Assembly (NCBI RefSeq): GCF_016863395.1
Contig: NZ_BOOU01000003.1
Location: forward strand, 1-64,000
Length of the DNA stretch: 64,000 nucleotides
Source of the DNA: Sphaerisporangium rufum
GTDB lineage: Bacteria > Actinomycetota > Actinomycetes > Streptosporangiales > Streptosporangiaceae
Direction of reading: 5' to 3'
Shown: one piece after another, positions 33,950-49,417 of the stretch
Position numbering within the stretch: the first letter of the stretch is position 1
Layout of the letters: each line of letters starts with the position of its first letter
Translations under genes and position numbers: made by a program
Notes under the pieces: model-generated
The model's database searches: none
What the model was told of the DNA's origin: nothing
The model's input: only the letters and a program-made list of their open reading frames with translations

Positions 33950-34241
33950 CGGGCTCCCCTCGCCGTCGCGCTCGCGCTTCGTCTCCGTGACCGGCCCGCC
34001 ACCGGGCAGGGCCGGCCCCATGCACCATTCGTCACTTTAATGAACAAGGTCATCATCAGTCAGCCCTCTCGATGGGATCTTCTGACTGGACCGGTCATCC
34101 GGCTCCGCCGGCCCGGGCCGCGACGGGACCTCGCCCGGGCGGGGGCGGCGGTGACCGGACCGGCGCGTGCGGCCGCACCGTCCCGTTTGACCGGGTCACG
34201 GGGGGTAAGGAAGGCGGAACCCGTGATCGTGAGGAGCGCAG

Positions 34242-35195
34242 ATGACCACCTTCGGGTACTTCCTGTCCAGCGAGGAGCACGAGCCGAAAGAACTGGTACG
34301 GCAGGCGAAGATGGCGGAGCGGGCCGGCTTCCGGAGCCTGTGGATCTCCGACCACTTCCATCCGTGGATCGACGAGCAGGGGCACAGCCCGTTCGTCTGG
34401 TCGGTCATCGGCGCGGTCGCCGAGGCCACCTCGCTGCCCATCACCACCGCGGTGACCTGCCCGCTGGTGCGCATCCACCCGGCGATCATCGCGCAGGCGG
34501 CGGCCACCACCGCCTCGCTCACCGGCGGCCGCTTCCGGCTCGGCGTCGGCACCGGCGAGGCGCTCAACGAGCACATCATCGACACCCGCTGGCCGCCGGC
34601 CGCCGAGCGGCTGGAGATGCTGGAGGAGGCGGTCGGCCTGATGCGGCGGTTGTGGACCGGCGAGCTGGTCACCCATCGCGGCACCCACTACAAGGTGGAC
34701 ACCGCGCGGCTGTACACGCTGCCGGACGAGCCCCCGCCGGTGTACATCTCCGGCTTCGGCGACAAGTCGATCGAGTTGGCGGGCCGGATCGGCGACGGTT
34801 ACATCAGCACCGGGCCGTCCGCCGAGTCCGTGGCGAAGTTCCATGCCGCGGGCGGCGAGGGCAAGCCGGTCCAGGGCGGGCTGAAAGTCTGCCACGCCCC
34901 CGACGCCGCGCAGGCCCGCACGACGGTGCACCGCCTGTGGCCCAACCAGGGCATCCAGGGCGAGGCCGCCCAGCTGCTGCCGTTGCCCCGCCACTTCGAG
35001 CAGCTCGCCGAGATGGTCACCGAGGAGCAGGCCGCCGGCGGCACCCCCTGCGGCCCGGACCCCGAGGAGCACGTCAAGGCGATCACCGAGTACGTCGAGG
35101 CCGGCTTCGACGAGGTCTACGTCAGCCAGATCGGCCCCGACCAGGACGCCTTCTTCGACTTCTACGCCAAGGAGGTCCTCCCCCGCCTGGGTTAG
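34242..35195 (+). CDS. LLM-class F420-dependent oxidoreductase
   Basis: A 317-residue TIM-barrel enzyme of the luciferase-like monooxygenase class. Typical segments: FGYFLSSEEHEP, MAERAGFRSLWISDHFHPW, GRFRLGVGTGEALNEHI, PVYISGFGDKSIELAGRIGDGYI, and the C-terminal EYVEAGFDEVYVSQIGP. It closely follows the subfamily related to F420-dependent glucose-6-phosphate dehydrogenase (TIGR03557 type). It transfers hydride to or from coenzyme F420; the substrate is unknown. Start: ATG at 34242 after GAGGAGCG. A strong terminator at 35220 follows, so it is a single-gene unit. Confidence 0.9.
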   Translation: MTTFGYFLSSEEHEPKELVRQAKMAERAGFRSLWISDHFHPWIDEQGHSPFVWSVIGAVAEATSLPITTAVTCPLVRIHPAIIAQAAATTASLTGGRFRLGVGTGEALNEHIIDTRWPPAAERLEMLEEAVGLMRRLWTGELVTHRGTHYKVDTARLYTLPDEPPPVYISGFGDKSIELAGRIGDGYISTGPSAESVAKFHAAGGEGKPVQGGLKVCHAPDAAQARTTVHRLWPNQGIQGEAAQLLPLPRHFEQLAEMVTEEQAAGGTPCGPDPEEHVKAITEYVEAGFDEVYVSQIGPDQDAFFDFYAKEVLPRLG

Positions 35196-35219
35196 CCCGC
35201 CCCTGGGCCGGCCCGCCCG

Positions 35220-35261
35220 GCAGGCGCCGGGCGGCGACGCCTCCGGCCGCCCGGCGCCTGC
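35220..35261 (+). terminator. Terminator after the F420-type oxidoreductase gene
   Basis: A perfect 16-bp stem (35220-35235 with 35246-35261) and a 10-nt loop, 25 nt past the stop codon. It isolates the oxidoreductase gene from the sugar importer operon. Confidence 0.72.
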
Positions 35262-35281
35262 TCAGCCCGCGTTTCCGCTGG

Positions 35282-35310
35282 TTTACTCCGCCGGAGCAGG
35301 GAAGTACGAG
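35282..35310 (+). promoter_or_regulatory. Promoter of the sugar importer operon with embedded palindrome
   Basis: TTTACT (35282-35287), a 17-nt spacer and TACGAG (35305-35310). Between them CTCCGCCGGAG (35286-35296) is an 11-bp palindrome about the central C, well placed for a LacI- or GntR-type repressor. It does not resemble the CelR box, so this importer is probably under a different regulator. Confidence 0.4.
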
Positions 35311-35343
35311 TCGGTCAAGCAGGAAGTAGAGAAAGGTACGGCC

Positions 35344-36705
35344 TTGACCGGTTCGCGAGTGTGCCGTACAGCGGTGGCCGTCGTCCTGGCCGGCGGGCTC
35401 GCCGCCTGCGGCGGGGTGGGTTCGTCCGGCGGCGGCACCGGCGGTGCGAGCAGCGGCGGCGAGGGCGGCGCGCTGACCACCATGGGTTTCGGATTTCCGG
35501 ACGAGATCGCCACCGTCCGGGTGGACGCCTTCAAGAAGGCCTATCCGGACGTGCGGCTGGCGGTCAACGAGGGGCAGTTCGACGAGCAGGCGTTCCTGTC
35601 GGCCGTGGCGGCCGGCAACCCGCCGGACGTGGTCTACCTGCCGCGCGACAAGATCGGCGGCTACGCGGCGCGCGGCGCGATCCAGCCGCTGGACGAGTGC
35701 GTGGCCACCGAGCGCATCGCCACCGGCGACTTCTACCCGGCCGCCCAGCAGCAGGTGAAGTACGCCGGCAAATGGTACGCCGTGCCGGAGTTCTACAACT
35801 CCATCATCCTGCTGGTCAACGACAAGGCCGCCAAGGACGCCGGGGTGGACCCCAAGTCCATCGACACCTCCGACTGGGACGGGCTGGCGAAGCTGGCCGA
35901 GAAGATGACCAGGCGGGACGGGAACCGGATCAAGCGGTTCGGTTTCTATCCCAAGCTGCCGGAGTTCCTGCCGCTGTGGGCCAAGGCCAACGGCGCCGAC
36001 ATCCTCTCGGCCGACGGGCGCACCGCCCACCTTTCCGACCCCAAGGTGGTCGAGGCGCTGGAGTACGCCACCGGCCTGGTCAAGGCGCAGGGCGGCTGGA
36101 CCGGGCTGAAGGCCTTCACCGACACCTTCGACTACTTCGGCGCGGAGAACCCCTTCACCAAGGACCAGATCGGCATGATGCCGACCGAGCAGTACCTGGT
36201 CAGCTCGATGGCGGGCACCTCGCCGGACGCCGGCATCACCGTGCTGCCGTTCAAGGGCCGCGACGGGCGGCCGGTCAACAACGTGGGCGGCAACGCCTGG
36301 GTGATGCCGAAGGGCGCCAAGAACCCGCAGGCCGCCTGCCGGTGGATGAAGACCATGACCGCCAAGGACACCTGGATCGCCGCCGCCCGGGCCCGCGCCG
36401 ACAAGCGGGCCAAGGAAGGCAAGATCAATATCGGCACCTACACCGGCAACGCCGCCGCCGACGAGGTGATCTTCTCCCAGATCGTCAAGCCGAGCGGCAA
36501 GCCGGCCTACGACGACGCGGTCAAGGTGATCCGGTCGGTGCAGCAGGCCGGGTTCGTGGTCCCGCAGTCGGCCGCCGCCGCCGAGTTCGTCAAGACCTGG
36601 CAGGACGCCTCGACCCGGGTGCTGCTCGGCCGGCAGGACGCGGCCGGCTCGCTGGACAAGGCCCAGCGCGACGCGCAACGCGCCCTGGACGAGGCCGCGC
36701 AGTGA
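35344..36705 (+). CDS. Extracellular sugar-binding lipoprotein of an ABC importer
   Basis: A 453-residue lipoprotein. The signal peptide ends in a lipobox with C22 (VLAGGLAAC), so the mature protein is lipid-anchored outside the membrane. The body is a family-1 solute-binding protein (VRVDAFKKAYPDVRL, GNPPDVVYLPRDKIGGY, KWYAVPEFYNS, NVGGNAWVMPKGAKNP). It captures a sugar or oligosaccharide for the two permeases that follow. Start: TTG at 35344 with AAAGG 8 nt upstream. Its stop overlaps the GTG of the first permease (GTGA). The sugar cannot be deduced. Confidence 0.92.
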   Translation: MTGSRVCRTAVAVVLAGGLAACGGVGSSGGGTGGASSGGEGGALTTMGFGFPDEIATVRVDAFKKAYPDVRLAVNEGQFDEQAFLSAVAAGNPPDVVYLPRDKIGGYAARGAIQPLDECVATERIATGDFYPAAQQQVKYAGKWYAVPEFYNSIILLVNDKAAKDAGVDPKSIDTSDWDGLAKLAEKMTRRDGNRIKRFGFYPKLPEFLPLWAKANGADILSADGRTAHLSDPKVVEALEYATGLVKAQGGWTGLKAFTDTFDYFGAENPFTKDQIGMMPTEQYLVSSMAGTSPDAGITVLPFKGRDGRPVNNVGGNAWVMPKGAKNPQAACRWMKTMTAKDTWIAAARARADKRAKEGKINIGTYTGNAAADEVIFSQIVKPSGKPAYDDAVKVIRSVQQAGFVVPQSAAAAEFVKTWQDASTRVLLGRQDAAGSLDKAQRDAQRALDEAAQ

Positions 36706-37643
36706 CGACCGCCGCGCCGGCCGGTCGCCGGGTGCGCCGGCTGCGGCCGGAGACCCGGTGGGCGTACATCTTCATGGTGCCGTGGCTAGTGGGCCTGCTG
36801 GTCTTCCAGCTCGGCCCGATGATCGCCAGCCTGGCGCTCTCCTTCGCCGACTACGACCTGATCTCCGCCCCCCGGTTCACCGGCCTGGACAACTACGCCC
36901 GCATGCTGGAGGACGACAAGGTGGCCCGGGCGGTGGGCAACACCGCGCTCTACACCGCGCTGCACGTACCGCTGGCCGTCGTGCTGGCGCTGGTGCTGGC
37001 GCTGGTCCTCAACCGGATCACCGGCCGGGCGGCCGGCGCGTTCCGCACGATCTTCTACCTGCCGTCGATGACCCCGTACGTCGCGGTCGGCGTGCTGTTC
37101 CTGTTCCTGCTCAACGGCCAGGCCGGCATGGTGAACGACTTCCTGGCGCTGTTCGGGATCTCCGGCCCGCAGTGGACCACCGACCCGGACTGGATCCTGC
37201 CCGGCATCGTGCTGATGTCGCTGTGGAACCTCGGCTCCACCACGATCATCCTGTTCGCCGCGCTGCGCAACGTGCCGCGCGAGCTGGCCGAGGCCGCCAT
37301 GATCGACGGCGCCGGCCCCTGGCAGCGGTTCCGCTCGGTGACGCTGCCGATGATCAGCTCGGCGCTGTTCTTCGTGGTCATCATCAACACGATCACGTCG
37401 CTGCAGATGTTCGACCAGGTCTACACGATGTTCTTCGGCAACCAGATCGCCCAGCAGTCCTCCGGCGACGCGGCGCTGTTCTACGTCGTCTACCTGTTCC
37501 AGCAGGCCTTCCAGTTCCTGCACATGGGATACGCCTCCGCGCTCGCCTGGCTGCTGTTCCTGGTGATCGCGGTGATCACGCTGATCCAGGTGAAGGTGGG
37601 GAACCGGCTGGTGTATTACGAGGCCGAGGAGCACGCCGGATGA
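36702..37643 (+). CDS. Sugar ABC transporter permease (MalF type)
   Basis: A 313-residue permease with six membrane helices, beginning at WAYIFMVPWLVGLLVFQLGP. The cytoplasmic coupling loop is ELAEAAMIDGAGPWQRFRSVTLP (EAA motif), which docks to an ATPase. Start: GTG at 36702, overlapping the binding-protein stop. Its stop overlaps the ATG of the next permease (ATGA). Earlier in-frame starts fall inside the binding-protein gene and are not used. Confidence 0.93.
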   Translation: MTTAAPAGRRVRRLRPETRWAYIFMVPWLVGLLVFQLGPMIASLALSFADYDLISAPRFTGLDNYARMLEDDKVARAVGNTALYTALHVPLAVVLALVLALVLNRITGRAAGAFRTIFYLPSMTPYVAVGVLFLFLLNGQAGMVNDFLALFGISGPQWTTDPDWILPGIVLMSLWNLGSTTIILFAALRNVPRELAEAAMIDGAGPWQRFRSVTLPMISSALFFVVIINTITSLQMFDQVYTMFFGNQIAQQSSGDAALFYVVYLFQQAFQFLHMGYASALAWLLFLVIAVITLIQVKVGNRLVYYEAEEHAG

Positions 37644-38560
37644 CCACCACCCTGCACCCCGCCGAACCGGCCGTCCAGGCGCCCGCGGCCGCGCGCGGCG
37701 GCGGCGACGGGACCGCCGACACCGCGGCGCGCGGCACCCGCAAGGTGTTCTTCCTGACCATTCTGGCCGCCGCCTCGGCCCTGTTCCTCTACCCGTTCGT
37801 CTGGCTGGTGGTCGCCTCGCTCAAGCCGCGGGACCGGACGTTCGCCGACCCGTTCCTGCCCTGGCCGAGGCCGTTCGCGCCGGGCAACTACGCGGCGGTG
37901 TTCGAGGCGGCGCCGGTGCTGACCTGGCTGGTCAACTCGCTGGTGGTCGGGATCGCCGCCGCGCTGGCGGTCACCCTGTCCAGCGCCTTCGTGGCGTTCG
38001 GCTTCGCCTACTTCCGCTTCCCGGGCCGCGGGCTGCTGTTCGGCAGCGTGCTGGCCACGATGATGCTGCCCGGGGCGGTGACCCTGGTGCCGACGTACCT
38101 GATCTGGAACTCGGTGGGGCTGACCGGCACCCAGGTGCCGCTGTGGGCGGCCAACCTGTTCGGCTCGGCGTTCTACATCTTCCTGCTCCGGCAGTTCCTG
38201 CTGGGCGTCCCCCGGTACGTGTTCGAGGCGGCCCGGGTGGACGGCGCGTCGTACTTCGACCTGTTCTGGCGGATCGCGCTGCCGCTGTCCCGGCCGGCGT
38301 TGATCATCGCGTTCATCTTCGAGCTCAAGGCGAGCTGGTTCGAGCTGATGAAGCCGCTGATCTACCTGCAGGACCCCGGGCTGTACACGCTGCCGCGCGG
38401 GCTGAAGGCGATCGTCGACACCTTCTACCAGGGCGGCGATCCCAAGTGGGAGATCGTGCTGGCGGCCAGCGTGATCACCACGCTGCCGCTGATGGTGATC
38501 TTCTTCATCGGCCAGCGGTACTTCGTGGAGGGCATCGCCACCACCGGCCGGCGCGGCTGA
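37640..38560 (+). CDS. Sugar ABC transporter permease (MalG type)
   Basis: A 306-residue permease. About 35 low-complexity residues precede the first helix (VFFLTILAAASALFLYPFVW). The EAA coupling loop is YVFEAARVDGASYFDLFWRIALP. It pairs with the preceding MalF-type subunit. No ATPase gene follows; family knowledge is that many actinomycete sugar importers share the single ATPase MsiK encoded elsewhere. A GC palindrome at 38561-38578 terminates the unit. Confidence 0.93.
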   Translation: MTTTLHPAEPAVQAPAAARGGGDGTADTAARGTRKVFFLTILAAASALFLYPFVWLVVASLKPRDRTFADPFLPWPRPFAPGNYAAVFEAAPVLTWLVNSLVVGIAAALAVTLSSAFVAFGFAYFRFPGRGLLFGSVLATMMLPGAVTLVPTYLIWNSVGLTGTQVPLWAANLFGSAFYIFLLRQFLLGVPRYVFEAARVDGASYFDLFWRIALPLSRPALIIAFIFELKASWFELMKPLIYLQDPGLYTLPRGLKAIVDTFYQGGDPKWEIVLAASVITTLPLMVIFFIGQRYFVEGIATTGRRG

Positions 38561-38578
38561 CGGCACCGGCCGGTGCCG
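38561..38578. terminator. Palindrome between convergent genes
   Basis: An 18-bp perfect palindrome (arms CGGCACCGG/CCGGTGCCG) directly after the permease stop (38560), before the convergent acetyltransferase gene ending at 38597. It could terminate in both directions. Confidence 0.5.
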
Positions 38579-38596
38579 GTCGTCATGGGCCGGCCG

Positions 38597-39103
38597 TCAC
38601 CGGCGCCACTCGCGGTCGAGGATGCTCATGTCCGCCGCGGACCACCACTCCCCCTCCACCAGGGTCATCTCACGCCGGACGCCCTCGTGCCGGAAGCCGA
38701 GCCGCTCGTACAGCCGGGTGGCACCGGTGTTGTGCAGGTAGACGCCGAGGTCCACCCGGTGCGCCCCCATCTCCTCGAACGCGACGCGCAGCGCCTCGCC
38801 CACCATGGCGGCGCCGGCGCCGCGCCCGCGCCCGGCCGGCGCGACGATGACCAGGCCGAGCCGGACGACCCAGCCGGGCCGGTCGGGCAGCAGCGTCACC
38901 AGCCCGAGCGGCGGGCCGTCCCCCTCGACGGCGACGAACATCCGGCGGCCCGGCTGCGCCGCCCGCAGGGCGAGCAGCTGGCCGGCGTCGAACGGCCAGC
39001 CGAACCCGCTGTTGCCCGACCAGGTGGCCAGCGCCGCCGGGCCGTCCACCCAGGACGCCACCGCGGCGGCGTCCTCCGGCCGGAAACCCCGTATTTCGAT
39101 CAT
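38597..39103 (-). CDS. GNAT-family N-acetyltransferase (RimJ-like)
   Basis: A 168-residue acetyltransferase using acetyl-CoA. The family core is present: RLGLVIVAPAGRGRGAGAAMVGEAL (pyrophosphate-binding loop) and VDLGVYLHNTGATRLYERLGFRHEG. The arrangement fits the RimJ/RimL-like group that acetylates protein N-termini or small amines. The substrate is unknown. Start: ATG at 39103 with a poor ribosome site. Stands alone. Confidence 0.88.
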   Translation of the reverse strand: MIEIRGFRPEDAAAVASWVDGPAALATWSGNSGFGWPFDAGQLLALRAAQPGRRMFVAVEGDGPPLGLVTLLPDRPGWVVRLGLVIVAPAGRGRGAGAAMVGEALRVAFEEMGAHRVDLGVYLHNTGATRLYERLGFRHEGVRREMTLVEGEWWSAADMSILDREWRR

Positions 39104-39176
39104 CGGGCTTTTGTAGCAAACCCGCCGGCCGCCGGGAACCGGCCCCCTGCGGTGCGCGGCCCCGGCGAAGGCCGGC

Positions 39177-39386
39177 TCAGGCGTTCCGGAGCCGGCCGCT
39201 GCGCTCCTGCAGCTCGTCGATGAGCCGGGAGGCGTCGGCCTTGGACAGGTCGTCCGGCACCTCCTGGCCGGCCTCGCGGGCGAGGGTGCGCAGGTAGGAC
39301 TCCTGCGGCCCGGTCATGGGCTCGTCACCCGTCGCCCACTCCTCCGGGTCCTTCTCCACCGGTCCGTGCTCCACGTCGCTCGCCAT
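39177..39386 (-). CDS. DUF3072 small protein
   Basis: A 69-residue protein with the DUF3072 pattern: EEWATGDEPMTGPQESYLRTLAREAGQ, then DDLSKADASRLIDELQ. The predicted helical pair resembles a small DNA- or protein-binding fold, but no function is known. Start: ATG at 39386 after GGGGGAG. Transcribed away from the leader-peptide region at 39489. Confidence 0.88.
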   Translation of the reverse strand: MASDVEHGPVEKDPEEWATGDEPMTGPQESYLRTLAREAGQEVPDDLSKADASRLIDELQERSGRLRNA

Positions 39387-39488
39387 GTCGCTCCCCCTTC
39401 GTCCTCACTCCGTCTCGAACGGGAGTTCGCTACCCGGATCGTCCAGCGTCTAACCGGCCACTATTCCCGATAAAACAAGTAGGAAATG

Positions 39489-39518
39489 TTGACTAGGCCG
39501 GCGGGGCACGCGTACAGT
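39489..39518 (+). promoter_or_regulatory. Promoter of the leader peptide
   Basis: TTGACT (39489-39494), an 18-nt spacer and TACAGT (39513-39518). The expected start site is at 39525-39526, on or next to the ATG of the leader peptide, so the transcript is probably leaderless. Confidence 0.6.
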
Positions 39519-39525
39519 CATCGGC

Positions 39526-39600
39526 ATGAGCAAGGGCAAGCACCTGACCAGGCGCCCGCACGTGGACTTCTGCCACGTCGCCAGCGCGCAGTGTCGCTGA
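39526..39600 (+). CDS. Cysteine-type leader peptide (cis-acting attenuator)
   Basis: A 24-codon frame, too short for most gene finders. It ends in RRPHVDFCHVASAQC-R, matching the RRxHVDxxRxSSAxC signature of actinomycete leader peptides placed before sulfur-uptake and cysteine genes. Family knowledge: ribosome stalling at Cys codons when cysteine is scarce changes downstream RNA folding or transcription. Two Cys codons (16 and 23) are present. The transcript is probably leaderless. The gene it should control, a sulfonate-type transporter operon, is here reduced to a truncated binding protein (39794-40132). It is directly followed by a long GC-rich spacer (39601-39793) with no clear gene. Confidence 0.8.
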   Translation: MSKGKHLTRRPHVDFCHVASAQCR

Positions 39601-39793
39601 TCCGATCGCGGTCCCCGCAGCCTCCCTCTCCGCCCCGGGCGAGCGCCCACCGGCGCCCCACCGGCGCCCGCGCCCCGGCGCCCCGCGTGGCCGACGCCGC
39701 CCGCGCGCCCCCCGCACGAACCACCCTCCGGCATGCCCCGCCGCCCGCCGCGGCCGCGCGAGCATGCCCGCTCTCCGACGAGGACCACCCACC

Positions 39794-40132
39794 GTGCTCA
39801 AAATCAGACAACTCGTGCCCCCACTCCTGCTGCTCGCCGCCGCCGGCTGCGCCTCGGCCGAAGGCAAGGCCGGCCCGGGCGGCACGGAGGTGACCGAACT
39901 GCGCTACCAGGGCTCCGCCGGCGCGGTCACCTTCCCCGAACTTGCCGCCGACCTCGGTTATCTCGGCGACGTCAAGCTGAAGTGGATCGGCGACACCACC
40001 TCCGGGCCGCAGGACATCCAGTCGGTCGCGACCGGCCAGACCGAATTCGGCGGTACCCGCGCCTGCCGTACCCGCCCCACCGCATCGGCGGTATCGCCCC
40101 GGGCGGGACGGCGGATTACCGTACCGGGGTGA
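39794..40132 (+). pseudogene. Truncated sulfonate/taurine/nitrate-type ABC binding protein
   Basis: The frame starts at GTG 39794 with a lipoprotein signal (LLLAAAGC). It then follows the SsuA/TauA-type binding proteins (ELRYQGSAG, FPELAADLGYLGDVKLKWIGDTTSGPQ split over two blocks, QSVATGQTEFGG), where a normal protein would run on for about 250 more residues. After FGG (about 40055) the sequence changes to a Pro/Arg-rich tail unrelated to the family and ends at 40132 in a GTGA overlap with the sensor kinase gene. A deletion fused the front of the transporter operon to the upstream edge of the kinase. No permease or ATPase remains in the window. Confidence 0.78.
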
Positions 40133-41235
40133 GGACAGTGGCCCTGGTGTGCGGGATGGCCGTACTCGTGGTGGGCACATCGGTGCTCGCCTATGGCAAC
40201 CAGCCGGCGGCCAGGCCGCTCGACCCGGCCGGGTACGCCCTGCTCCTGGCCGCCGTCGCGAGCCTGGCGTGGCTGCCATCTCGGCCGGACCGGGCGCTGG
40301 CCGGAAGCGTGGCGGCGGCGGTGGCCTACTTCGCGTCCGGGTATGCCTACGCGCTGTGGCCGGCGCCCGCCCTGGTGGCGACGTCCGCCGCGATCTCATC
40401 CGGCCGCCGGGCGGTGGGGTGGGCGGGAGCCGGGGTGCTGGTCGCCGTCCCGGTGGGTGCCGTGAGCCTCGCTCCCCGACTCGACGGCATCGTCGGAGTG
40501 GTCCTGTGGACGTCGCTGGTGCTGGTGGTCACCCTGTCCGCCGAGGTGTCGCGGACCCGCCGGGCCTACGTCGCCCTCATCGAGGAGCGGGCGGCGGCGG
40601 CCGAGCGCGACCGCGCCGAGGAGGCGCTCCGCCTGGCCCAGGAGGAGCGCCTCAAGGTCGCCCGGGAACTGCACGACGTCACCTCGCACACGGTGTCGGT
40701 GATCGCGCTGCACGCCGCGGTGGCCGCCGAGGCGGTGGACCGGGCGGGCGGGCCGCCGGAGGCGGCCGAGGCGCTGCTGGTGATCCGCCGGGCCAGCCGG
40801 GAGGCGCTCGCCGAGATGAAGGCGGTGCTGGGGGTGTTGCGGCCCGGCGGCACCCGCCCGCAGCCGGGCTCGGCGGAGCTGCCGGAGCTGCTGGCCACCG
40901 CCACCGTGCCGGTCGCCTTCGAGACGACCGGTGCGCGGCGACCCCTGCCGCCCGCCGTCGACCTGACCGTCTACCGGGTCGTGCAGGAGGCGCTGACCAA
41001 CACGATGCGGCATGCCGCCGCGAGCCGGGTGACCGTCGCGCTCGACTACGCGGCGGACGCGGTCGAGGTCCGGATCGACGACGACGGCCGCGGCGGCGAC
41101 GCGCCGTGGGGGCACGGCCTGACCGGGATGGCCGAGCGGGTCGGCGCGGCCGGCGGTGAGTTCAGCGTGGGTGAGCGTCCCGGCGGTGGCTTCCGGGTGG
41201 CCGCGCGGCTGCCCGCCGAGAGAATGGGACCGTGA
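40129..41235 (+). CDS. Two-component sensor histidine kinase (NarL-partner type)
   Basis: A 368-residue membrane kinase. Five or six N-terminal helices (residues about 5-138) form the sensor. A short coiled linker leads to the HisKA_3 box with phospho-accepting H182 (ARELHDVTSHTVSVIALH). A HATPase domain follows (VVQEALTNTMRHA, DDGRGG, GHGLTGMAERV). The large periplasmic sensor of some relatives is missing, so it may sense within the membrane. Start: GTG at 40129, overlapping the truncated binding-protein frame. Its stop overlaps the response regulator start (GTGA). Confidence 0.93.
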   Translation: MRTVALVCGMAVLVVGTSVLAYGNQPAARPLDPAGYALLLAAVASLAWLPSRPDRALAGSVAAAVAYFASGYAYALWPAPALVATSAAISSGRRAVGWAGAGVLVAVPVGAVSLAPRLDGIVGVVLWTSLVLVVTLSAEVSRTRRAYVALIEERAAAAERDRAEEALRLAQEERLKVARELHDVTSHTVSVIALHAAVAAEAVDRAGGPPEAAEALLVIRRASREALAEMKAVLGVLRPGGTRPQPGSAELPELLATATVPVAFETTGARRPLPPAVDLTVYRVVQEALTNTMRHAAASRVTVALDYAADAVEVRIDDDGRGGDAPWGHGLTGMAERVGAAGGEFSVGERPGGGFRVAARLPAERMGP

Positions 41236-41885
41236 TAACGGTCCTGCTGGCCGACGACCAGCCACTCGTCCGCGCCGGCCTGCGCGCGCTGCTCGGCAGC
41301 GAGAGCGATCTGAGCGTCATCGGTGAGGCCGAGGACGGGGCTCAGGCCGTACGGTTGACCGCGGAGCTCGCACCCGACGTGGTGCTGATGGACATCCGCA
41401 TGCCGCGCATGGACGGCCTGGAGGCCACCAGGCGGCTGGCCGGCGGCCGGGCCAGGGTGGTCGTGGTCACCACCTTCGACCTCGACGAGTACGTCTACGC
41501 CGCGCTGCGCGCCGGAGCCGGCGGCTTCGTGGTCAAGGACGCCGAACCGGCCGAGATCCGCCATGCCGTACGGGTCGCCGCGCGGGGGGACGCCCTGCTG
41601 TCGCCCGCCGTGACCAGGCGGCTGATCGAGCGGTTCGCCGCCCTGGACGAGCCGCGGCTGGGCGCCGAACGGCTGGCGCCGCTGACCGCCCGCGAGCGCG
41701 AGGTGCTGACCGGGGTGACCCGGGGGCTCGGCAACGTCGAGCTGGCCGAGCGGCTGTTCATGAGCCCGGCCACGGTGAAGACCCACGTCAACCGCATGAT
41801 GGCCAAACTGGGGGTGCACGACCGCGCCCAGCTGGTGGTGATCGGCTACGAGACGGGATTGGTCCGTCCCGGAGACGGCGGCTGA
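41232..41885 (+). CDS. LuxR/NarL-family response regulator
   Basis: A 217-residue regulator. Receiver domain 1-118 with phosphorylation site D54 (VVLMDIRMPRMDG). LuxR-type helix-turn-helix about 150-210 (LTAREREVLTGVTRGLGNVELAERLFMS split around the turn, TVKTHVNRMMAKL). Partner of the upstream kinase by the GTGA overlap at 41232. The MMPL transporter 138 bp downstream on the same strand is a likely target. Confidence 0.95.
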   Translation: MITVLLADDQPLVRAGLRALLGSESDLSVIGEAEDGAQAVRLTAELAPDVVLMDIRMPRMDGLEATRRLAGGRARVVVVTTFDLDEYVYAALRAGAGGFVVKDAEPAEIRHAVRVAARGDALLSPAVTRRLIERFAALDEPRLGAERLAPLTAREREVLTGVTRGLGNVELAERLFMSPATVKTHVNRMMAKLGVHDRAQLVVIGYETGLVRPGDGG

Positions 41886-42023
41886 GCCGCGTTCGTGCGT
41901 ACCGGGCCGATGCCGCCGGCCGCGGAACCGGACCGGGCCGCCGCGGGTACCGCGGATGGGGTAGCCGGCCACCAGCAACCGGTGGACGCGGGCCGCCGGC
42001 CGCGCTCCCTAGCGTTCGGCGAC

Positions 42024-44045
42024 ATGACGCGTTTCCTGCTCGACCGGCGATGGCCGGTCCTTGTGTTGTGGGCGGTGCTGACGGCCGCGCTGGCCGCGGG
42101 TGCCGCCGCCTTCCCCGGCCCGAGCCACGACGACTTCACCCTGCCGGGCTCGGAGAGCGGGCGGGCCGCCGGCCTGCTGGGCGGCCCGCCGCCGGAGTCA
42201 CCCGGCACGCTGGTGGTCTCCGGCGCCGACCCCGGCGCGGTGCGGCTGTCACTCGCGCGGATCACCGCCCGCCTCGGCGCGGTCGACGGGGTCACGACCC
42301 GGCCGGGGCCGGCCAGCGACGATGGGCGGGTGGCCACGGCGGGCATCGACTACCCGGACGCCGAGACCGCGTACCGGATCAAGAACATGGGGCTGTCCGC
42401 GCCCGGTGTCCAGGTGGACCTGGCGGGCGACGACTTCGCGGACTTCACGCCCGGCGGGTTGACCGAGGGCGTCGGGCTGCTGGCCGCGGCGGTGATCCTG
42501 CTGCTGGCGTTCCGCTCCCTCCTCGCCATGCTGCTGCCGATCGTGATCGGCGTCGTCGGCGTGGTGTGCGGCAGGTCGATGCTGACCCTGCTGGGGCACC
42601 TGGTCCCCACGCCGGGCTTCGCCGGCTATCTGACGATCATGCTGGGGCTCGGGGTGGGCATCGACTACGCCCTGCTCGTCGTCACCCGCTTCCGCACTTC
42701 GCTGCGGGAGAGGCTGGCGGTGGAGCCGGCGATCGAGGCGGCGATGCGGACCGCCGGCCGGTCGGTGCTGTACGCCGGGATCACGGTGATCCTCACCGCG
42801 GCGGGCATCCTCTTCCTCGGACCCGAGCAGGGCGGCGGCATCGCGCTGGCCGCCGGATGCGGCGTGCTCATGGTCATGCTGGCCGCCCTGACGCTGCTGC
42901 CGGTGCTGCTGCGCCTGATCGGGCGGCGGATCGACCGGCGGGCGGCGCGGGACGGCCGCCGGACACCGCCGGCCGCGCGGTGGGGCGCGGTGGTGCAGCG
43001 GCGGCCGTGGACCACGGGGCTGATCGCGCTCGGGGTGCTGCTGATCCTTGCCGCCCCGGCGCTCGACCTGCGGGTGGGCTGGTCGGACGCCGGCAACCGG
43101 CCGGTCACCGATACCACCCGCCGGGCCCACGACACCCTGGCCCGCGCCTTCGGGGCCGGCGCGGGCGGCCCGCTCATCCTGGTCACCGCCGAGAAGGGCG
43201 ACGGCGCCCCCGGCGGGTGCGCGGCCCCGCTGGCGGCGGCCTGCGCGCGGGCCGAGGGCATCCCGGGGGTGGCCAAGGTGCTTCCCGCCGGCGAGCAGGC
43301 CGCGCTGGTCGTACCTGACACCGGTCCCCAGGACGCCAGGACGGCCCGGCTGCTCCACCGGCTGCGCGCCGACCTGCCCGCGCACGTGCTGGTGACCGGC
43401 TCGACGGCGGCCGCCGCCGACTACGCCGCCCACACCGCCGCCCGGCTGCCGTGGATGGTCGGCGCGGTGCTGGCCGCCTCGATCCTGCTGCTGCTCATGA
43501 TGTTCCGCAGCGTCGTGGTGCCGCTGAAGGCCATCGCCGTCAACCTGCTGTCCATCGGCGCGGCCTACGGCGTGTGCGTCGCCGTCTTCCAGTGGGACGT
43601 GCTGGGGCGCGGCACCGGCGGCCCGATCGACGCCTGGGTGCCGACGATGCTCTTCGTCATCATGTTCGGCCTGTCGATGGATTACGAGGTCTTCCTGCTC
43701 TCCCGGATCCGCGAGGAGTACCTGCGCACCGGCGACAACGGTCGCGCGGTGCGCGAAGGGCTGGCCGGGACGGCCCGGGTGATCTCCGCGGCGGCGGCCA
43801 TCATGTTCTGCGTCTTCGCCGCCTTCGGCGCCTTCGACGACCGGGCGCTGCAGATCATGGGCGTGGGCCTGGCCGCCGCCGTCCTGCTGGACGCGACGGT
43901 GGTGCGGCTGGTGCTGGTACCCGCGGCCATGCAGGTGCTCGGCGACCGCAACTGGTGGTGGCCCGGGGACCGGCGGGCGGCGGAACCGGCGACCGCGCCG
44001 CCCGCCGCTCCGGCCGCGCCGCCCGCCGCTCGCGGCCCGTGGTGA
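42024..44045 (+). CDS. MMPL-family membrane transporter
   Basis: A 673-residue RND-type transporter with two repeats of membrane helices. The first block is LTEGVGLLAAAVILLLAFRS and GLGVGIDYALLVVTRFR. The second is MFGLSMDYEVFLLSRIREEYL. Asp residues within these GxxxDY motifs carry protons. Relatives export lipids or amphipathic drugs. The first 130 residues include an outer porter domain. Start: ATG at 42024 has no ribosome site; a TAGCGT box 9 nt upstream suggests a leaderless transcript. Frames further upstream are less likely. Placed after a two-component system, a common actinomycete arrangement for export control. Confidence 0.92.
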   Translation: MTRFLLDRRWPVLVLWAVLTAALAAGAAAFPGPSHDDFTLPGSESGRAAGLLGGPPPESPGTLVVSGADPGAVRLSLARITARLGAVDGVTTRPGPASDDGRVATAGIDYPDAETAYRIKNMGLSAPGVQVDLAGDDFADFTPGGLTEGVGLLAAAVILLLAFRSLLAMLLPIVIGVVGVVCGRSMLTLLGHLVPTPGFAGYLTIMLGLGVGIDYALLVVTRFRTSLRERLAVEPAIEAAMRTAGRSVLYAGITVILTAAGILFLGPEQGGGIALAAGCGVLMVMLAALTLLPVLLRLIGRRIDRRAARDGRRTPPAARWGAVVQRRPWTTGLIALGVLLILAAPALDLRVGWSDAGNRPVTDTTRRAHDTLARAFGAGAGGPLILVTAEKGDGAPGGCAAPLAAACARAEGIPGVAKVLPAGEQAALVVPDTGPQDARTARLLHRLRADLPAHVLVTGSTAAAADYAAHTAARLPWMVGAVLAASILLLLMMFRSVVVPLKAIAVNLLSIGAAYGVCVAVFQWDVLGRGTGGPIDAWVPTMLFVIMFGLSMDYEVFLLSRIREEYLRTGDNGRAVREGLAGTARVISAAAAIMFCVFAAFGAFDDRALQIMGVGLAAAVLLDATVVRLVLVPAAMQVLGDRNWWWPGDRRAAEPATAPPAAPAAPPAARGPW

Positions 44046-44066
44046 TTCGTCGCGGTGATACGTCGC
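44041..44066. repeat. 13-bp tandem repeat at the end of the MMPL gene
   Basis: GGTGATTCGTCGC (44041-44053) and GGTGATACGTCGC (44054-44066) differ at one base. The first copy includes the MMPL stop codon, so the duplication is just past the coding end. No function is evident. Confidence 0.5.
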
Positions 44067-44105
44067 GGCGAGTGCCGCCGGCGCCGGCCCGCCGGGTTCG
44101 CCGGG

Positions 44106-45374
44106 TCAGCCGGTCGCGGCCCGCTCGGCGCCGACCAGCCGGACGCACACGGCGAGCCCGGCGATCGCCGCCTCCAGGTCCGGCAGGCTCGGGAAGGTGG
44201 GGGCGATGCGGATCGTCCGGTCCGCCGGATCCTTGCCGTACGGGTGGGTGGCGCCCGCCGGGGTGAGCACGATGCCGGCCTCGCCGGCGCGCCGCACCAC
44301 CTCGCGGGCGCACCCTTCCGGGACCTCCAGGGCCAGGAAGTAGCCGCCCCGCGGGGTCGTCCAGGACGCCAGTCCGGTGCCGCCCAGCTCGGCGGCCAGG
44401 ATCCGCTCGACCGCGTCGAACTTGGGACGCAGCAGCTCGCGCTGGCGTCGCATGTGGTCGTGCAACCCGGCCTCGTCCCGCAGGAACAGCGCGTGCCGCA
44501 GCTGGTTGACCTTGTCCGGGCCGATGGTCCGCCGGGACACGCGGTCCAGCCACCAGTCGACGTTGGCCGGCGAGCCGCCGATGAAACCGACGCCGGCGCC
44601 GGCCAGCGTGACCTTGGAGGTGGAGCCGAAGACCAGGGCGCGGTCGGGGTCGGCGCCGGCCGCGCAGGCGGCGAGCAGATCGGCCAGCCCGGCCGGCTCG
44701 CCGGTCAGATGGTGCACGGCGTAGGCGTTGTCCCAGAAGATCCGGAAGTCCGGGGCGGCCGTCCGCATCTCCGCCAGCCGGCGGACGACGTCGTCACCGT
44801 AGGTCTCGCCGCTGGGGTTGCTGTATTTGGGCACGCACCAGATGCCCTTGACCGCCGGGTCGGCGCCGGCCAGCCGCTCCGCGGCGTCCATGTCCGGTCC
44901 GGCGCCGGTCATCGGCACCGGGATCATCTCGATGCCGTACCGCTCGCAGATGGCGAAGTGCCGGTCGTAGCCGGGGACCGGGCACAGGAAGGCCACCCGC
45001 TCCTCCTCGGCCCAGCGGCGCGGCGAACCGGGCACCCCGGCCAGCAACGCCTGCACGACGACGTCGTGCATCAGTTCCAGGCTGGAGTTGCCGGCGGCCA
45101 GCAGCCGGTCGGCCGGCACCTGCAGCGGGCCGCTGAAGATCTCCCGCAGTTCCGGTAGCCCGCGCGGCCCGCCGTAATTGCGGCAGTCCGTCCCGTCGGC
45201 CGCCCGGTACACCGGGCCGGGCAGTTCCAGCAGCCCGGCGGACAGGTCCAGCTGGTCCGGCGCGGGCTTGCCCCGGGTGAGATCCAGCCGCAGCCCGCGC
45301 GCCGCCAGCTCCGCGTACTCGCGCCGGGCGCGGTCCACCGGCGGCACCCCGTCCCGCACGTCGATCGATGTCAT
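44106..45374 (-). CDS. PLP-dependent aminotransferase (class I/II)
   Basis: A 422-residue pyridoxal-phosphate enzyme. It follows the aspartate aminotransferase subgroup PF12897 (LTRGKPAPDQLDLS, RNYGGPRGLPELREIF, YDRHFAICERYGIEM, PKYSNPSGETY). The cofactor lysine is in STSKVTLAGAGVGF. TPRGGYFLALEVP and RIAPTFPS are the usual C-terminal motifs. It exchanges amino groups between an amino acid and 2-oxoglutarate; the exact amino acid is not certain. Start: ATG at 45374 after GGAGGAAA; an ATG seven codons earlier lacks a ribosome site. Confidence 0.92.
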   Translation of the reverse strand: MTSIDVRDGVPPVDRARREYAELAARGLRLDLTRGKPAPDQLDLSAGLLELPGPVYRAADGTDCRNYGGPRGLPELREIFSGPLQVPADRLLAAGNSSLELMHDVVVQALLAGVPGSPRRWAEEERVAFLCPVPGYDRHFAICERYGIEMIPVPMTGAGPDMDAAERLAGADPAVKGIWCVPKYSNPSGETYGDDVVRRLAEMRTAAPDFRIFWDNAYAVHHLTGEPAGLADLLAACAAGADPDRALVFGSTSKVTLAGAGVGFIGGSPANVDWWLDRVSRRTIGPDKVNQLRHALFLRDEAGLHDHMRRQRELLRPKFDAVERILAAELGGTGLASWTTPRGGYFLALEVPEGCAREVVRRAGEAGIVLTPAGATHPYGKDPADRTIRIAPTFPSLPDLEAAIAGLAVCVRLVGAERAATG

Positions 45375-45453
45375 CGGTTTCCTCCGAGTTCGCACCGCAG
45401 CCGACGATACCGTCCCCGGCGCGGGCCCGCCGGGCGTCCGGCGCGCCGGCCGG

Positions 45454-47397
45454 TCAGCGGCCCGGCCGGGACGGCGCGGGGGCGCCGCCGAACGCGGTGA
45501 GGAAGCGGTCGCGGAAGGTGTCCATCGGCCAGACCGGCGCCCCCGGGCCGGGCCGCAGGCCGTCCTGCCAGCCCCAGCCGGAGATCCGGTCCAGCACCGC
45601 CCGGTCCTTGGCCACGATGGTGATCGGCACGTCCCGGCTCGCCCCCGGCCCGGTGACCAGCGGCGCGGGCTGGTGGTCGCCGAGAAAGACCAGCACCAGG
45701 TCGTCGTCGCCGTACCGCTCCACGTACGAGAGCAGGCCGGTCAGCGAGTACTCGATGGAGCGCCGGTACTCGGCGCGCACCCGGGCCGGGTCGCTCCACA
45801 CCTGGTCGGGGTCCTGGCCGGCGGCGCGGATGGACCGGAACACCGAGCCGTCGCCGAGTTCGTCCCAGCCGACCATCCGGGGGATCGGCGCCCACGGGGC
45901 GTGGCTGGAGACCAGCGCGACCTCGGCCATGACCGGCGGGTGGTCCTTCTTCGCGCGCTCGGCACGCTGGAAGCTCTCCAGGGTGAACTGGTCGGGGACG
46001 GTGCCCCAGTTGAAGCCCGGCCCCCGGTAGCCGAGGTTCCACGACGCGTACACCTGGTCGTACCCGAAGAACGCCCCCTCCGGCCAGGCCCGGGTGACGC
46101 CCGGCATCACGCCGACGGTCCGCCAGCCGGCCCGCCGGAACGCGCCGTTGAGGGTGAGCCGGTCGCTCTCGACCGTCGCCTGGTAGCGCTGCTGGTCGTT
46201 CACCCAGCGGCCGGACAGCAGGGTGGCGTGCGCCAGCCAGCTGCCGCCGCCGATGGTCGGGGAGGTGAGGAAGCCGCTGCGCGCGGCGTACCCGGCGGCA
46301 CGCAGCCGGCGGTCACCCTCGGCGAGCACCGCGCCGACCCCGCCGGCGAACTCCTGGTCCTGCACCGCGTCCCGGCCGTAGCTCTCGACGAAGGCGAGCA
46401 GGACGTCCTTGCCGCGCAGGCCGGCCAGCAGCGCCTCCCCCGGCGTGGCGCGGAACGGGTCCTGGCGCAGCGCCGCCTGGAACTCCTCCTGGTCGCGCAG
46501 GCTGGTGCGCACCTGGAGCAGCCGGTCGGCGGCCAGCGCGGCGACCGGCGTGCCCGGCGCCAGCTGGGCGCCCAGCAGTGCGCAGATCACCCAGGTGACG
46601 GCGAGCACGCCCAGCGCGCCGGCCGACGCGGTCCGGCGCCGGGCCGCGGCGCCCGCCAGGCGCAGCGCCGACCACGTCATCAGCACCAGCACGGCGACGG
46701 CCAGCAGCACCGCCCCGGCCACCGCGCCGACGGCGCCGGCCGGGCCGGCGGACTCGGCCACGAAGTCCACCCCGGCCCGCAGGAAGTACCAGTCGGACAC
46801 CAGGTTGAACGGCCGGGCCAGCACCGACTGGAAGCCCAGGTCGGCCGCCTTCACAATGGCCAGCAGGCCGATCACCGCCCCGGCGGCCGCGGCCACCGCC
46901 CGGCGGGCGCGGCCCCGCAGTGCCAGGATCAGGACGCCGGCCAGCAGCGCCTCGGCCGGGAGCCGGACGAACCCGGCGGCGGTCAGCGCGTCGGGCCGGT
47001 CCGGCGCCAGCAACGCGAACGCCACCAGCAGGCCCGCCACCGGCGTGCCGGCCCGCCGCAGTGTCCGCCGCAGTGTCCGCCGCAGTACCCGCCGCGCCGA
47101 TCCCCGCCCCGCGGACGGGGGCGCCACGTCCGGCGCGGGCTCGCTGTTGGACTTGGCGTCGGGCAGCGGCCCGGCGACGTCCGACGCGGGTCCGGCGTCG
47201 GACACGCGTTCGGCGTCGGACACGGGTCCGGCGTCGGTGGACGCGGATCCCGCGTCGGTGGACGCGGGTCCGGCGGCGTCCGGTGCGGCGGCGTCCGGCG
47301 GCCCGGAGCTCCGCTCGCCGGCGGGAGGAGCGCCCTCCGGTCCGGTACGCCCGGCGGCGGCCGGCCGGTGCCGGTGGTATCGCGTGAAGACCGACAA
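45454..47397 (-). CDS. LTA-synthase/sulfatase-like membrane protein
   Basis: About 647 residues. A Ser/Asp/Ala/Pro-rich cytoplasmic N-terminus precedes five or so membrane helices (roughly residues 115-310). An extracellular alkaline-phosphatase-superfamily domain follows, with LLAFVESYGRDAV, TSPTIGGGSWLAHATLLSG (nucleophile region) and VFLGDHQPAP (metal ligands). This resembles LtaS-type enzymes that transfer glycerol-phosphate or phospholipid head groups. The actinomycete substrate is uncertain. Start uncertain: TTG at 47397 follows AGAAGGG; an earlier GTG at 47538 would add 47 residues that read like non-coding sequence. Divergent from the subtilase gene. Confidence 0.75.
   Translation of the reverse strand: MSVFTRYHRHRPAAAGRTGPEGAPPAGERSSGPPDAAAPDAAGPASTDAGSASTDAGPVSDAERVSDAGPASDVAGPLPDAKSNSEPAPDVAPPSAGRGSARRVLRRTLRRTLRRAGTPVAGLLVAFALLAPDRPDALTAAGFVRLPAEALLAGVLILALRGRARRAVAAAAGAVIGLLAIVKAADLGFQSVLARPFNLVSDWYFLRAGVDFVAESAGPAGAVGAVAGAVLLAVAVLVLMTWSALRLAGAAARRRTASAGALGVLAVTWVICALLGAQLAPGTPVAALAADRLLQVRTSLRDQEEFQAALRQDPFRATPGEALLAGLRGKDVLLAFVESYGRDAVQDQEFAGGVGAVLAEGDRRLRAAGYAARSGFLTSPTIGGGSWLAHATLLSGRWVNDQQRYQATVESDRLTLNGAFRRAGWRTVGVMPGVTRAWPEGAFFGYDQVYASWNLGYRGPGFNWGTVPDQFTLESFQRAERAKKDHPPVMAEVALVSSHAPWAPIPRMVGWDELGDGSVFRSIRAAGQDPDQVWSDPARVRAEYRRSIEYSLTGLLSYVERYGDDDLVLVFLGDHQPAPLVTGPGASRDVPITIVAKDRAVLDRISGWGWQDGLRPGPGAPVWPMDTFRDRFLTAFGGAPAPSRPGR
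47053..47088. repeat. 12-bp tandem repeat in the LTA-synthase-like gene
   Basis: Three copies of CCGCCGCAGTGT (the last ending TAC), encoding RRTL units on the minus strand just before the first membrane helix. A longer degenerate repeat in the Ser/Asp/Ala-rich N-terminus lies at about 47160-47290. Both regions are prone to slippage. Confidence 0.7.
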
Positions 47398-47620
47398 CCC
47401 GTGGCCCTTCTCTGCGCGGCTCCACGCGGAGCCTGGTGGCGCGGCGGTGGGCCGGCGCCGGGTGGCGGTCACCGTCCCGGATCGCCACCTCTGGCGGGAA
47501 ATCCTGGTACACCAGGTCGGCGAAATCCGGCAAACCACGAACCGTAGCCGGTAAATGGCGTTATGCAGCCATCGAGAGGCCGGCAGAGGTTGTTGCGAAT
47601 GTCACACCTTCATAGCGAAG

Positions 47621-47638
47621 TGCGCCAGATGTGGCGCA
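47621..47638. promoter_or_regulatory. Inverted repeat upstream of the subtilase gene
   Basis: TGCGCCA (47621-47627) and TGGCGCA (47632-47638) flank a GATG spacer, 58 bp before the subtilase start. It is a candidate operator in the divergent region between the subtilase and the LTA-synthase-like gene. Confidence 0.4.
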
Positions 47639-47695
47639 TTGCCCGGATCTTCGCGAACGATGAGCCGGCATGACGTCAACTCACCGGAGGTGCGT

Positions 47696-49417
47696 GTGAA
47701 ACGCGTCCTCGTCGTAACCGCCGCGGCGGCCGTGATCGCCACAACCATGGCGCTCCCCGCACAGGCCGTCCGAACGACGGCCGCAGCCGCGACGACGACC
47801 CAGTACGTGGTCCTCTACAAGGAGGGTGCCGCGGCCGCGGACGCCCGCAAGGCGATCGAGTCGGCGGGCGGCACCGTCGTCAAGGTGAACACCGCCGTGG
47901 GGCTCGCCACGGTCACCGCCACCGACGCCGGCTTCGCCGAGGCGGTGCGCGCGAGCGCGGCCGTCCAGGGCGTCGCCCGCGACCGGGTCATCGGCACCGC
48001 GCCCGACCTGGTGAAGAGCAAGCGTGAGGCGCGCGGCGCCAAGCGCGACGCCGACGTCGAGAAGGAGGGCCGCGGCGGCAAGGGCCGGCCGGAGCGTCCT
48101 CGCCCGACGAAGGACGAGCCGCTGTCGGACCTGCAGTGGGACATGAAGCAGATCCACGCGCCGCAGGCCCACGCCTACGAGCAGGGCGACCGCAAGGTCC
48201 TGGTCGGCGTGATCGACACCGGTGTCGACGGCTCCCACCCCGACATCGCGCCCAACTTCGACCGCAGGCTCAGCCGCAACTTCACCGTGGACATCCCCGC
48301 GGACGCCAACGGCGACCCGATCGACGGACCGTGTGAAGAGGAGCCGGACCGGTCCTGCCAGGACCCGAGCGACGTGGACGAGGACGGCCACGGCACGCAC
48401 GTCGCCTCCTCGATCGCCTCCCCGATCAACAAGCTCGGCATCGCGGGCGTGGCGCCCAAGGTGACGATCGTCAACCTGCGCGCCGGCCAGGACTCGGGCT
48501 ACTTCTTCCTCCCGGCGACCGTCGACGCGCTCACCTACGCGGGCGACCACGGCATCGACGTGGTCAACATGAGCTACTACATCGACCCGTGGCTGTTCAA
48601 CTGCGTGGACAACCCCGCCGACTCCGCCGAGGACCGGCAGGAGCAGGCCACCATCATCGCCGCCACCCAGCGGGCGCTGAACTACGCGCACCGCCGCGGC
48701 GTGACCATGGTCGCCGCGGCCGGCAACCAGGCCATCGACTACACCAAGACCAACGTCGACGCCTCCAGCCCCGACTTCGCGAGCGAGCCGGGCGAGGTGC
48801 CGCGCGATCGCACCATCCCGGCGAGCTGCCTGTCGCTGCCGGGCGAGGGCGAGCACGTCATCTCGGTGTCCGCCACGGGCATCAGCAAGCGCAAGGCGTA
48901 CTACTCCTCCTACGGCAACGGCTACGTCGACGTGGCCGCCCCCGGCGGCGACGCCTACGACACCCCCGACAACACCCGCGACATCACCAAGACGACCCTG
49001 TCGGCCTATCCCGAGTCGCTGGCCAGGGCCAACGGCGAGATCGACGAGAACGGCGAGCCCACCGTCGATTACGTGGTGAAGGACTGCCGGGGCGCCACCT
49101 GCGCGTACTACCAGTACCTGCAGGGCACCTCGATGGCCTCGCCGCGGGCCGCGGGCGTCGCCGCGCTGATCGTCAGCAAGTACGGCCAGCGTGACCGGCG
49201 TGGCGGCATGACCATGTCGCCGGACCGGGTCGAGCAGATCATGAAGAGCACCGCCACCCCGACGGCCTGCCCCAACCCGCCCGCCTACACCTACACCCGG
49301 CAGTTGCCGACCGGCCAGACCGCCACCGCCACCCACGTGTGCGAGGGCACCACCGCCGCCAACGGCTTCTACGGCGCGGGCATCGTCGACGCGCTGCGCG
49401 CCGTCACCCGCCGCTGA
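47696..49417 (+). CDS. Secreted subtilisin-family (S8) serine protease
   Basis: A 573-residue extracellular protease. Signal peptide 1-24 (AQA). Inhibitor I9-like propeptide about 35-105. A charged Lys/Arg-rich linker. Catalytic domain about 160-573 with D174 (VIDTGVDGSHPD), H232 (GHGTHVASS) and S479 (GTSMASPRAAG). The oxyanion Asn is in AAAGNQ. The catalytic domain has paired Cys (PCEEEPDRSC, DCRGATC), typical of secreted enzymes. Start: GTG at 47696 after GGAGG; longer frames lack a signal peptide. A terminator at 49430 follows. Confidence 0.94.
   Translation: MKRVLVVTAAAAVIATTMALPAQAVRTTAAAATTTQYVVLYKEGAAAADARKAIESAGGTVVKVNTAVGLATVTATDAGFAEAVRASAAVQGVARDRVIGTAPDLVKSKREARGAKRDADVEKEGRGGKGRPERPRPTKDEPLSDLQWDMKQIHAPQAHAYEQGDRKVLVGVIDTGVDGSHPDIAPNFDRRLSRNFTVDIPADANGDPIDGPCEEEPDRSCQDPSDVDEDGHGTHVASSIASPINKLGIAGVAPKVTIVNLRAGQDSGYFFLPATVDALTYAGDHGIDVVNMSYYIDPWLFNCVDNPADSAEDRQEQATIIAATQRALNYAHRRGVTMVAAAGNQAIDYTKTNVDASSPDFASEPGEVPRDRTIPASCLSLPGEGEHVISVSATGISKRKAYYSSYGNGYVDVAAPGGDAYDTPDNTRDITKTTLSAYPESLARANGEIDENGEPTVDYVVKDCRGATCAYYQYLQGTSMASPRAAGVAALIVSKYGQRDRRGGMTMSPDRVEQIMKSTATPTACPNPPAYTYTRQLPTGQTATATHVCEGTTAANGFYGAGIVDALRAVTRR

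Follow-up and report, generated by a model that had tools for sequence, protein, structure and literature searches.

A truncated sulfonate-acquisition operon adjoining a probably acquired kinase–regulator–MMPL operon in Sphaerisporangium rufum

Cysteine leaders and the sulfonate operon

Actinobacterial cysteine leaders, among them those described by the NCBIfam families NF042934 (putative leader peptide) and NF042933 (Ms5788A Cys-rich leader) and the mycobacterial leaderless polycysteine sORFs, are short leaderless ORFs with cysteine near the end that stand at the head of sulfur operons. They lack obvious terminators, and Rho has been proposed as the agent of control (Seliverstov 2005, PMC1262725), whilst a later study (Canestrari 2020, cited through PMC9031893 and PMC13236596) is quoted for the view that translation may be the level at which cysteine leaders act. 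Two other systems bear on the locus described here: the Ssu/Tau-type organosulfur operon, and a NarL-type two-component system with an MMPL transporter that is found in Nonomuraea and relatives.

The DNA analysed, hereafter the window, comprises bases 1–64000 of a 168,259 bp contig of Sphaerisporangium rufum, the source genome being a draft of 7.80 Mb in 173 contigs with a completeness of 99.28%. Judged from its sequence, the locus probably represents what is left of the 5' end of an operon for sulfonate acquisition, adjoining an acquired kinase–regulator–MMPL operon that has its own promoter. The front end begins as follows:

39478–39525, + strand: predicted leader promoter, with the AGTAGGAAATGTTGACT block, −35 box TTGACT (39489–39494), a spacer of 18 and −10 box TACAGT (39513–39518)
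39526–39600, + strand: leader peptide ORF MSKGKHLTRRPHVDFCHVASAQCR, 24 codons and TGA, recognised by its resemblance to NF042934 and by the core found in relatives
39601–39793, + strand: untranslated C-rich, G-poor stretch (C 56%, G 28.5%) without an intrinsic terminator, a candidate Rho-loading region

A preliminary description of this DNA had proposed a probably leaderless 24-codon peptide with an RRPHVDFC...C signature. The position of the ORF agrees with this: only 7 nt separate TACAGT from the ATG, at which transcription is predicted to start, and TTGACT-18-TACAGT is the sole promoter-like site in the 1 kb from 39300 to 40300 (0.0 expected from shuffles). Leaders in relatives are preceded by a matching block, AGTAGGAAA.TGTTGACTT, with TTGACT, TANNNT, about 7 nt and ATG, and leader and promoter are conserved together in Sphaerisporangium, Nonomuraea and other Streptosporangiaceae. 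The signature itself holds in part. Across 22 loci (window included) the core HVDF[CG]HVASAQCR is almost constant and Cys23 is present in every case; the pattern search that gave these loci had Cys23 as a requirement, but the residue is found also in leaders retrieved by DNA similarity alone. The first cysteine of the signature, by contrast, is not conserved, residue 16 being Cys in seven of the 22 loci and Gly in the other 15. Within its own genome the leader pattern matches once, at the present locus.

The leader thus has a start about 7 nt past a −10 box and a conserved Cys codon near its stop, as expected of a leaderless cysteine attenuator. It differs from the described cysteine leaders in having a single conserved Cys (codon 23) and no Cys run, and it scores below the curated cut-offs: 25 bits (E=1e-5) for NF042934, just short of 27, and 19.2 bits for NF042933, where the cut-off is 45. 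A second difference lies downstream. In congeners and other relatives the leader heads working sulfur-acquisition genes, whereas in the window it is followed by a truncated gene, the only sulfur gene left to it being this fragment, and then by a non-sulfur operon.

Comparison with relatives, the check put forward in the preliminary description, recovered the intact sulfonate operon and set the end of the truncation at 40053. The order in Streptosporangiaceae is leader, binding lipoprotein (about 340 residues), ATPase, permease, LLM-type monooxygenase and FMN/flavin reductases. Leader, promoter and the first 86–87 lipoprotein residues are common to the Ssu/Tau-type operon and the window, but every part downstream of these is missing from the latter. 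In congeners, FMN reductase and TauD-like genes are also headed by the same leader class (L047, L049, L051, L052, L054, L055), and this makes organosulfur acquisition the candidate regulon.

How might such a leader act? No intrinsic terminator or terminator-like site is present in 39300–40300, no attenuator fold was found (MFE z-score −0.59, with no unusual fold), and no Rfam match was obtained in 34000–48000. The gap between leader and lipoprotein is also C-rich and G-poor in relatives (C 40–52%, G 14–34%), so that a terminator-free, C-rich gap fits the published view of action through Rho or at the level of translation. Its length varies from about 43 to 266 nt: eight loci, nearly all from Nonomuraea (L131, L132, L133, L137, L154, L155, L185, L189), have 43–56 nt from leader stop to lipoprotein start, and elsewhere the distance is 120–270 nt. 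Gaps this short in eight loci place a long attenuator RNA outside the conserved mechanism. In relatives, then, the leader mRNA would have no 5' untranslated part and would be translated at once; when cysteine is low the ribosome would slow at Cys codon 23 and the sulfonate genes would be expressed. By analogy with the mycobacterial case, this control probably operates via Rho or coupled translation.

The truncation at position 40053

Beyond the gap the window contains a fragment of the lipoprotein gene and a join to other DNA:

39794–40053, + strand: truncated 5' part of the gene for a sulfonate-type ABC binding lipoprotein, 86–87 residues with the lipobox Cys, from the conserved GTG
40053–40058, no strand assigned: junction, with sulfonate-operon homology ending at 40053 and kinase-upstream homology starting at 40057–40059
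39764–40132, + strand: chimeric 122-codon ORF that begins with the lipoprotein fragment and closes with the TGA within GTGA at the kinase start (39794–40132 from the conserved GTG)

Relatives match 39478–40053 with 70–74% DNA identity (E down to 5e-88), well outside what chance would give. When 39980–40140 was used as query, sulfonate homology stopped at 40053 (±1 base) in about 90 genomes of the family, and it stops at the same point in a dozen genomes and in the congeners from a wider DNA comparison. A few genomes, for example G200 and G192, match from 40057–40059 onward, and there a kinase relative follows. Among about 340 other genomes of the family none matches both halves of the join. 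In some other genomes there are weak matches of short length (E 1e-5 to 1e-3) that overlap it, but these resemble the random similarity expected between GC-rich sequences. Taken together, the two homology limits define a truncated operon, much as the preliminary description had read the letters: a sulfonate-type binding lipoprotein for some 85 residues, and unrelated sequence after that.

The fragment, at 86–87 of about 340 residues, falls well short of a full-length solute-binding protein. It nevertheless keeps 28 of the 30 residues that are invariant in eight relatives, and its mean identity to them (63%) lies within their mutual range of 53–70%. This lack of decay implies either a recent break or some constraint that continues to act on the fragment.

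The earlier claim that the transporter has been lost is borne out by the assembly, which contains no close counterpart of the rest of the binding lipoprotein (best E 0.001), of the permease (best 34%) or of the monooxygenase (best 32%, E 2e-8). A rearrangement that moved the remainder to another place in the genome was rejected, since the assembly did not yield it; since the draft is in 173 contigs, the lost genes could sit in an assembly gap. On this evidence everything beyond codon 86–87 of the binding lipoprotein would be missing in the strain, which leaves the leader without a working sulfur gene to control.

Origin and promoter of the kinase operon

The DNA to the right of the join consists of a promoter region and three genes, the latter identified by their domains and relatives:

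40059–40128, + strand: predicted native kinase promoter region, with inverted repeat CACCGCATCGGCGGTA (40078–40093), −10 box TACCGT (40117–40122) and 6 nt to the GTG
40129–41235, + strand: sensor histidine kinase (HisKA_3, HATPase_c)
41232–41885, + strand: NarL/LuxR-type response regulator
41895–44045, + strand: MMPL-family transporter

The set has its relatives outside the genus. Over its N-terminal 239 residues the kinase is 57–71% identical to relatives in many Nonomuraea and in a small number of other genera; elsewhere in Sphaerisporangium the best kinases reach about 41–43%, and no close relative of the set is present in ten congeners. The set as a whole shows 59–80% identity in Nonomuraea and others, and the order kinase, regulator, MMPL is kept in all five genomes taken. 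Gene order, level of identity, a predicted leaderless promoter and an operator-like repeat are thus common to the window and the Nonomuraea-type operon. The upstream neighbour is not: here it is the truncated sulfur operon, whilst in several Nonomuraea it is an ORF of about 480–500 codons that ends in the same RTGA.

The preliminary description attributed the arrangement to a deletion. That account is not supported as it stands: the set is conserved in Nonomuraea and others, and none of ten congeners has a close relative of it, so that acquisition or replacement is needed in addition to a deletion. A simple deletion joining two loci already linked in an ancestor was rejected, because in Nonomuraea genomes that have both, the sulfonate and kinase loci are on different contigs or megabases apart. 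The kinase set was probably acquired and not merely brought nearer by a deletion. The likely history is that the set was gained next to or into the sulfonate operon and that the distal part of the operon was lost, in either order.

The right-hand limit of the foreign or unique DNA may be at about 45430, its left being 40054. For an aminotransferase gene (44106–45395) downstream of the MMPL gene, ten congeners gave no DNA match of any size worth noting, and the next gene (45454–47538) matches four of the ten at 69–75%. The aminotransferase was considered as a member of the acquired set and rejected, since in the five relatives taken it does not adjoin the MMPL gene.

Might the join be an error, with a chimeric contig at 40053 uniting the sulfonate locus with a distant locus or a contaminant? 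It is found in a single draft genome of 173 contigs and is absent from about 340 other genomes of the family, and the genes to its right belong to other genera. Neither side of it is repeated in its own genome, however, so there is no repeat to mislead an assembler; the outer flanks are typical of the genus (34800–38560 is 78–86% and 45431–47060 69–75% identical to congeners); and the missing remainder of the operon is on no other contig. An assembly error is therefore possible but not favoured, and we give it only a small chance.

The kinase operon probably brought its own leaderless promoter and operator-like repeat. Window positions 40059–40134 are 78% identical (E 2e-9) to the region that precedes a kinase gene of Nonomuraea. 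The window and all 24 readable relatives have a TANNNT box, mostly TACCGT, at a distance of 6 nt (twice 7 nt) from the kinase start codon, and in most of the relatives the box is preceded by an inverted repeat of the form ATACCGC-N2..4-GCGGTAT. The repeat at 40078–40093 and its counterparts are a candidate site for the NarL-type regulator. In several Nonomuraea (L101, L102, L103, L106, L110, L112, L113) the final codons of the upstream ORF of about 480–500 codons contain the kinase promoter. The −10 box is thus strictly placed at the kinase start codon even where the DNA encodes the end of an upstream gene, and since box and repeat are retained in non-coding DNA and ORF ends alike, a leaderless promoter accompanied by an operator is the best interpretation. 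From this promoter the kinase operon is probably transcribed.

Possible read-through from the leader into the kinase

As the preliminary description stated, the frame that begins in the lipoprotein ends in GTGA with the sensor kinase, its TGA (40130–40132) overlapping the kinase GTG (40129). None of the relatives compared over the join carries the short frame as a protein. A real new lipoprotein of 122 codons, such as an accessory sensor for the kinase, would be consistent with an open frame that retains start, signal peptide and lipobox Cys and with the invariant residues counted above. Its last 25 residues, however, derive from the promoter region, it is known from one genome only, and at about a quarter of a binding protein it is below the size of known ligand-binding folds. 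We consider this reading very improbable.

The overlap was further taken as a sign of new coupling between leader and kinase, and here the comparison speaks against it. RTGA is present at the kinase start in 17 of 24 relatives, and the overlap occurs in relatives without a leader at that place, so that the GTGA is, on sequence comparison, an old, ancestral feature of the start codon. Moreover, past the join none of the three frames has a stop before 40130, giving the lipoprotein frame a chance of about one in three of ending in that TGA.

A wider proposal is that the kinase, regulator and MMPL genes have come to be driven or modulated from the leader promoter and its attenuator, cysteine shortage raising kinase expression. 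Promoter and leader are indeed intact, with TTGACT/TACAGT and HVDFCHVASAQCR retained, and an undamaged leader and promoter would be expected if selection had kept read-through. The stretch 39300–40300 is free of terminator-like sites, and the chimeric ORF ends at the kinase start. Against this, a conserved kinase promoter lies just downstream of the join, the RTGA is shared with relatives, several of which have long upstream ORFs ending there, and termination in it is the one-in-three accident already mentioned. Rewiring of this kind appears unlikely.

With a conserved −10 box, an operator-like repeat and an ancestral GTGA of its own, the kinase operon is probably self-promoted, and leader and gene fragment are most likely a promoter-bearing remnant. 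Read-through into the kinase may nevertheless occur, for the leader promoter appears to be active and a terminator was not found. Transcripts from the leader promoter may enter the kinase operon and be coupled to it via the GTGA overlap, as a secondary input at most; should the leader work via Rho or coupling, a part of the kinase mRNA could come under the influence of cysteine, which we consider unlikely. Capture of promoter and attenuator, by which a cysteine-responsive leader joined to the acquired two-component/MMPL operon adds sulfur status as an input, is likewise unlikely.

For the family, the comparison shows that in Streptosporangiaceae the HVD[FL]-type cysteine leader is conserved in front of operons for sulfonate, taurine and FMN reductase. 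In S. rufum it offers a well-resolved truncation of one such operon beside a probably acquired operon, with ends fixed to a few bases, and an experiment of nature on the fate of an amino-acid attenuator that has lost its operon, which may turn into a new regulator or persist as debris.
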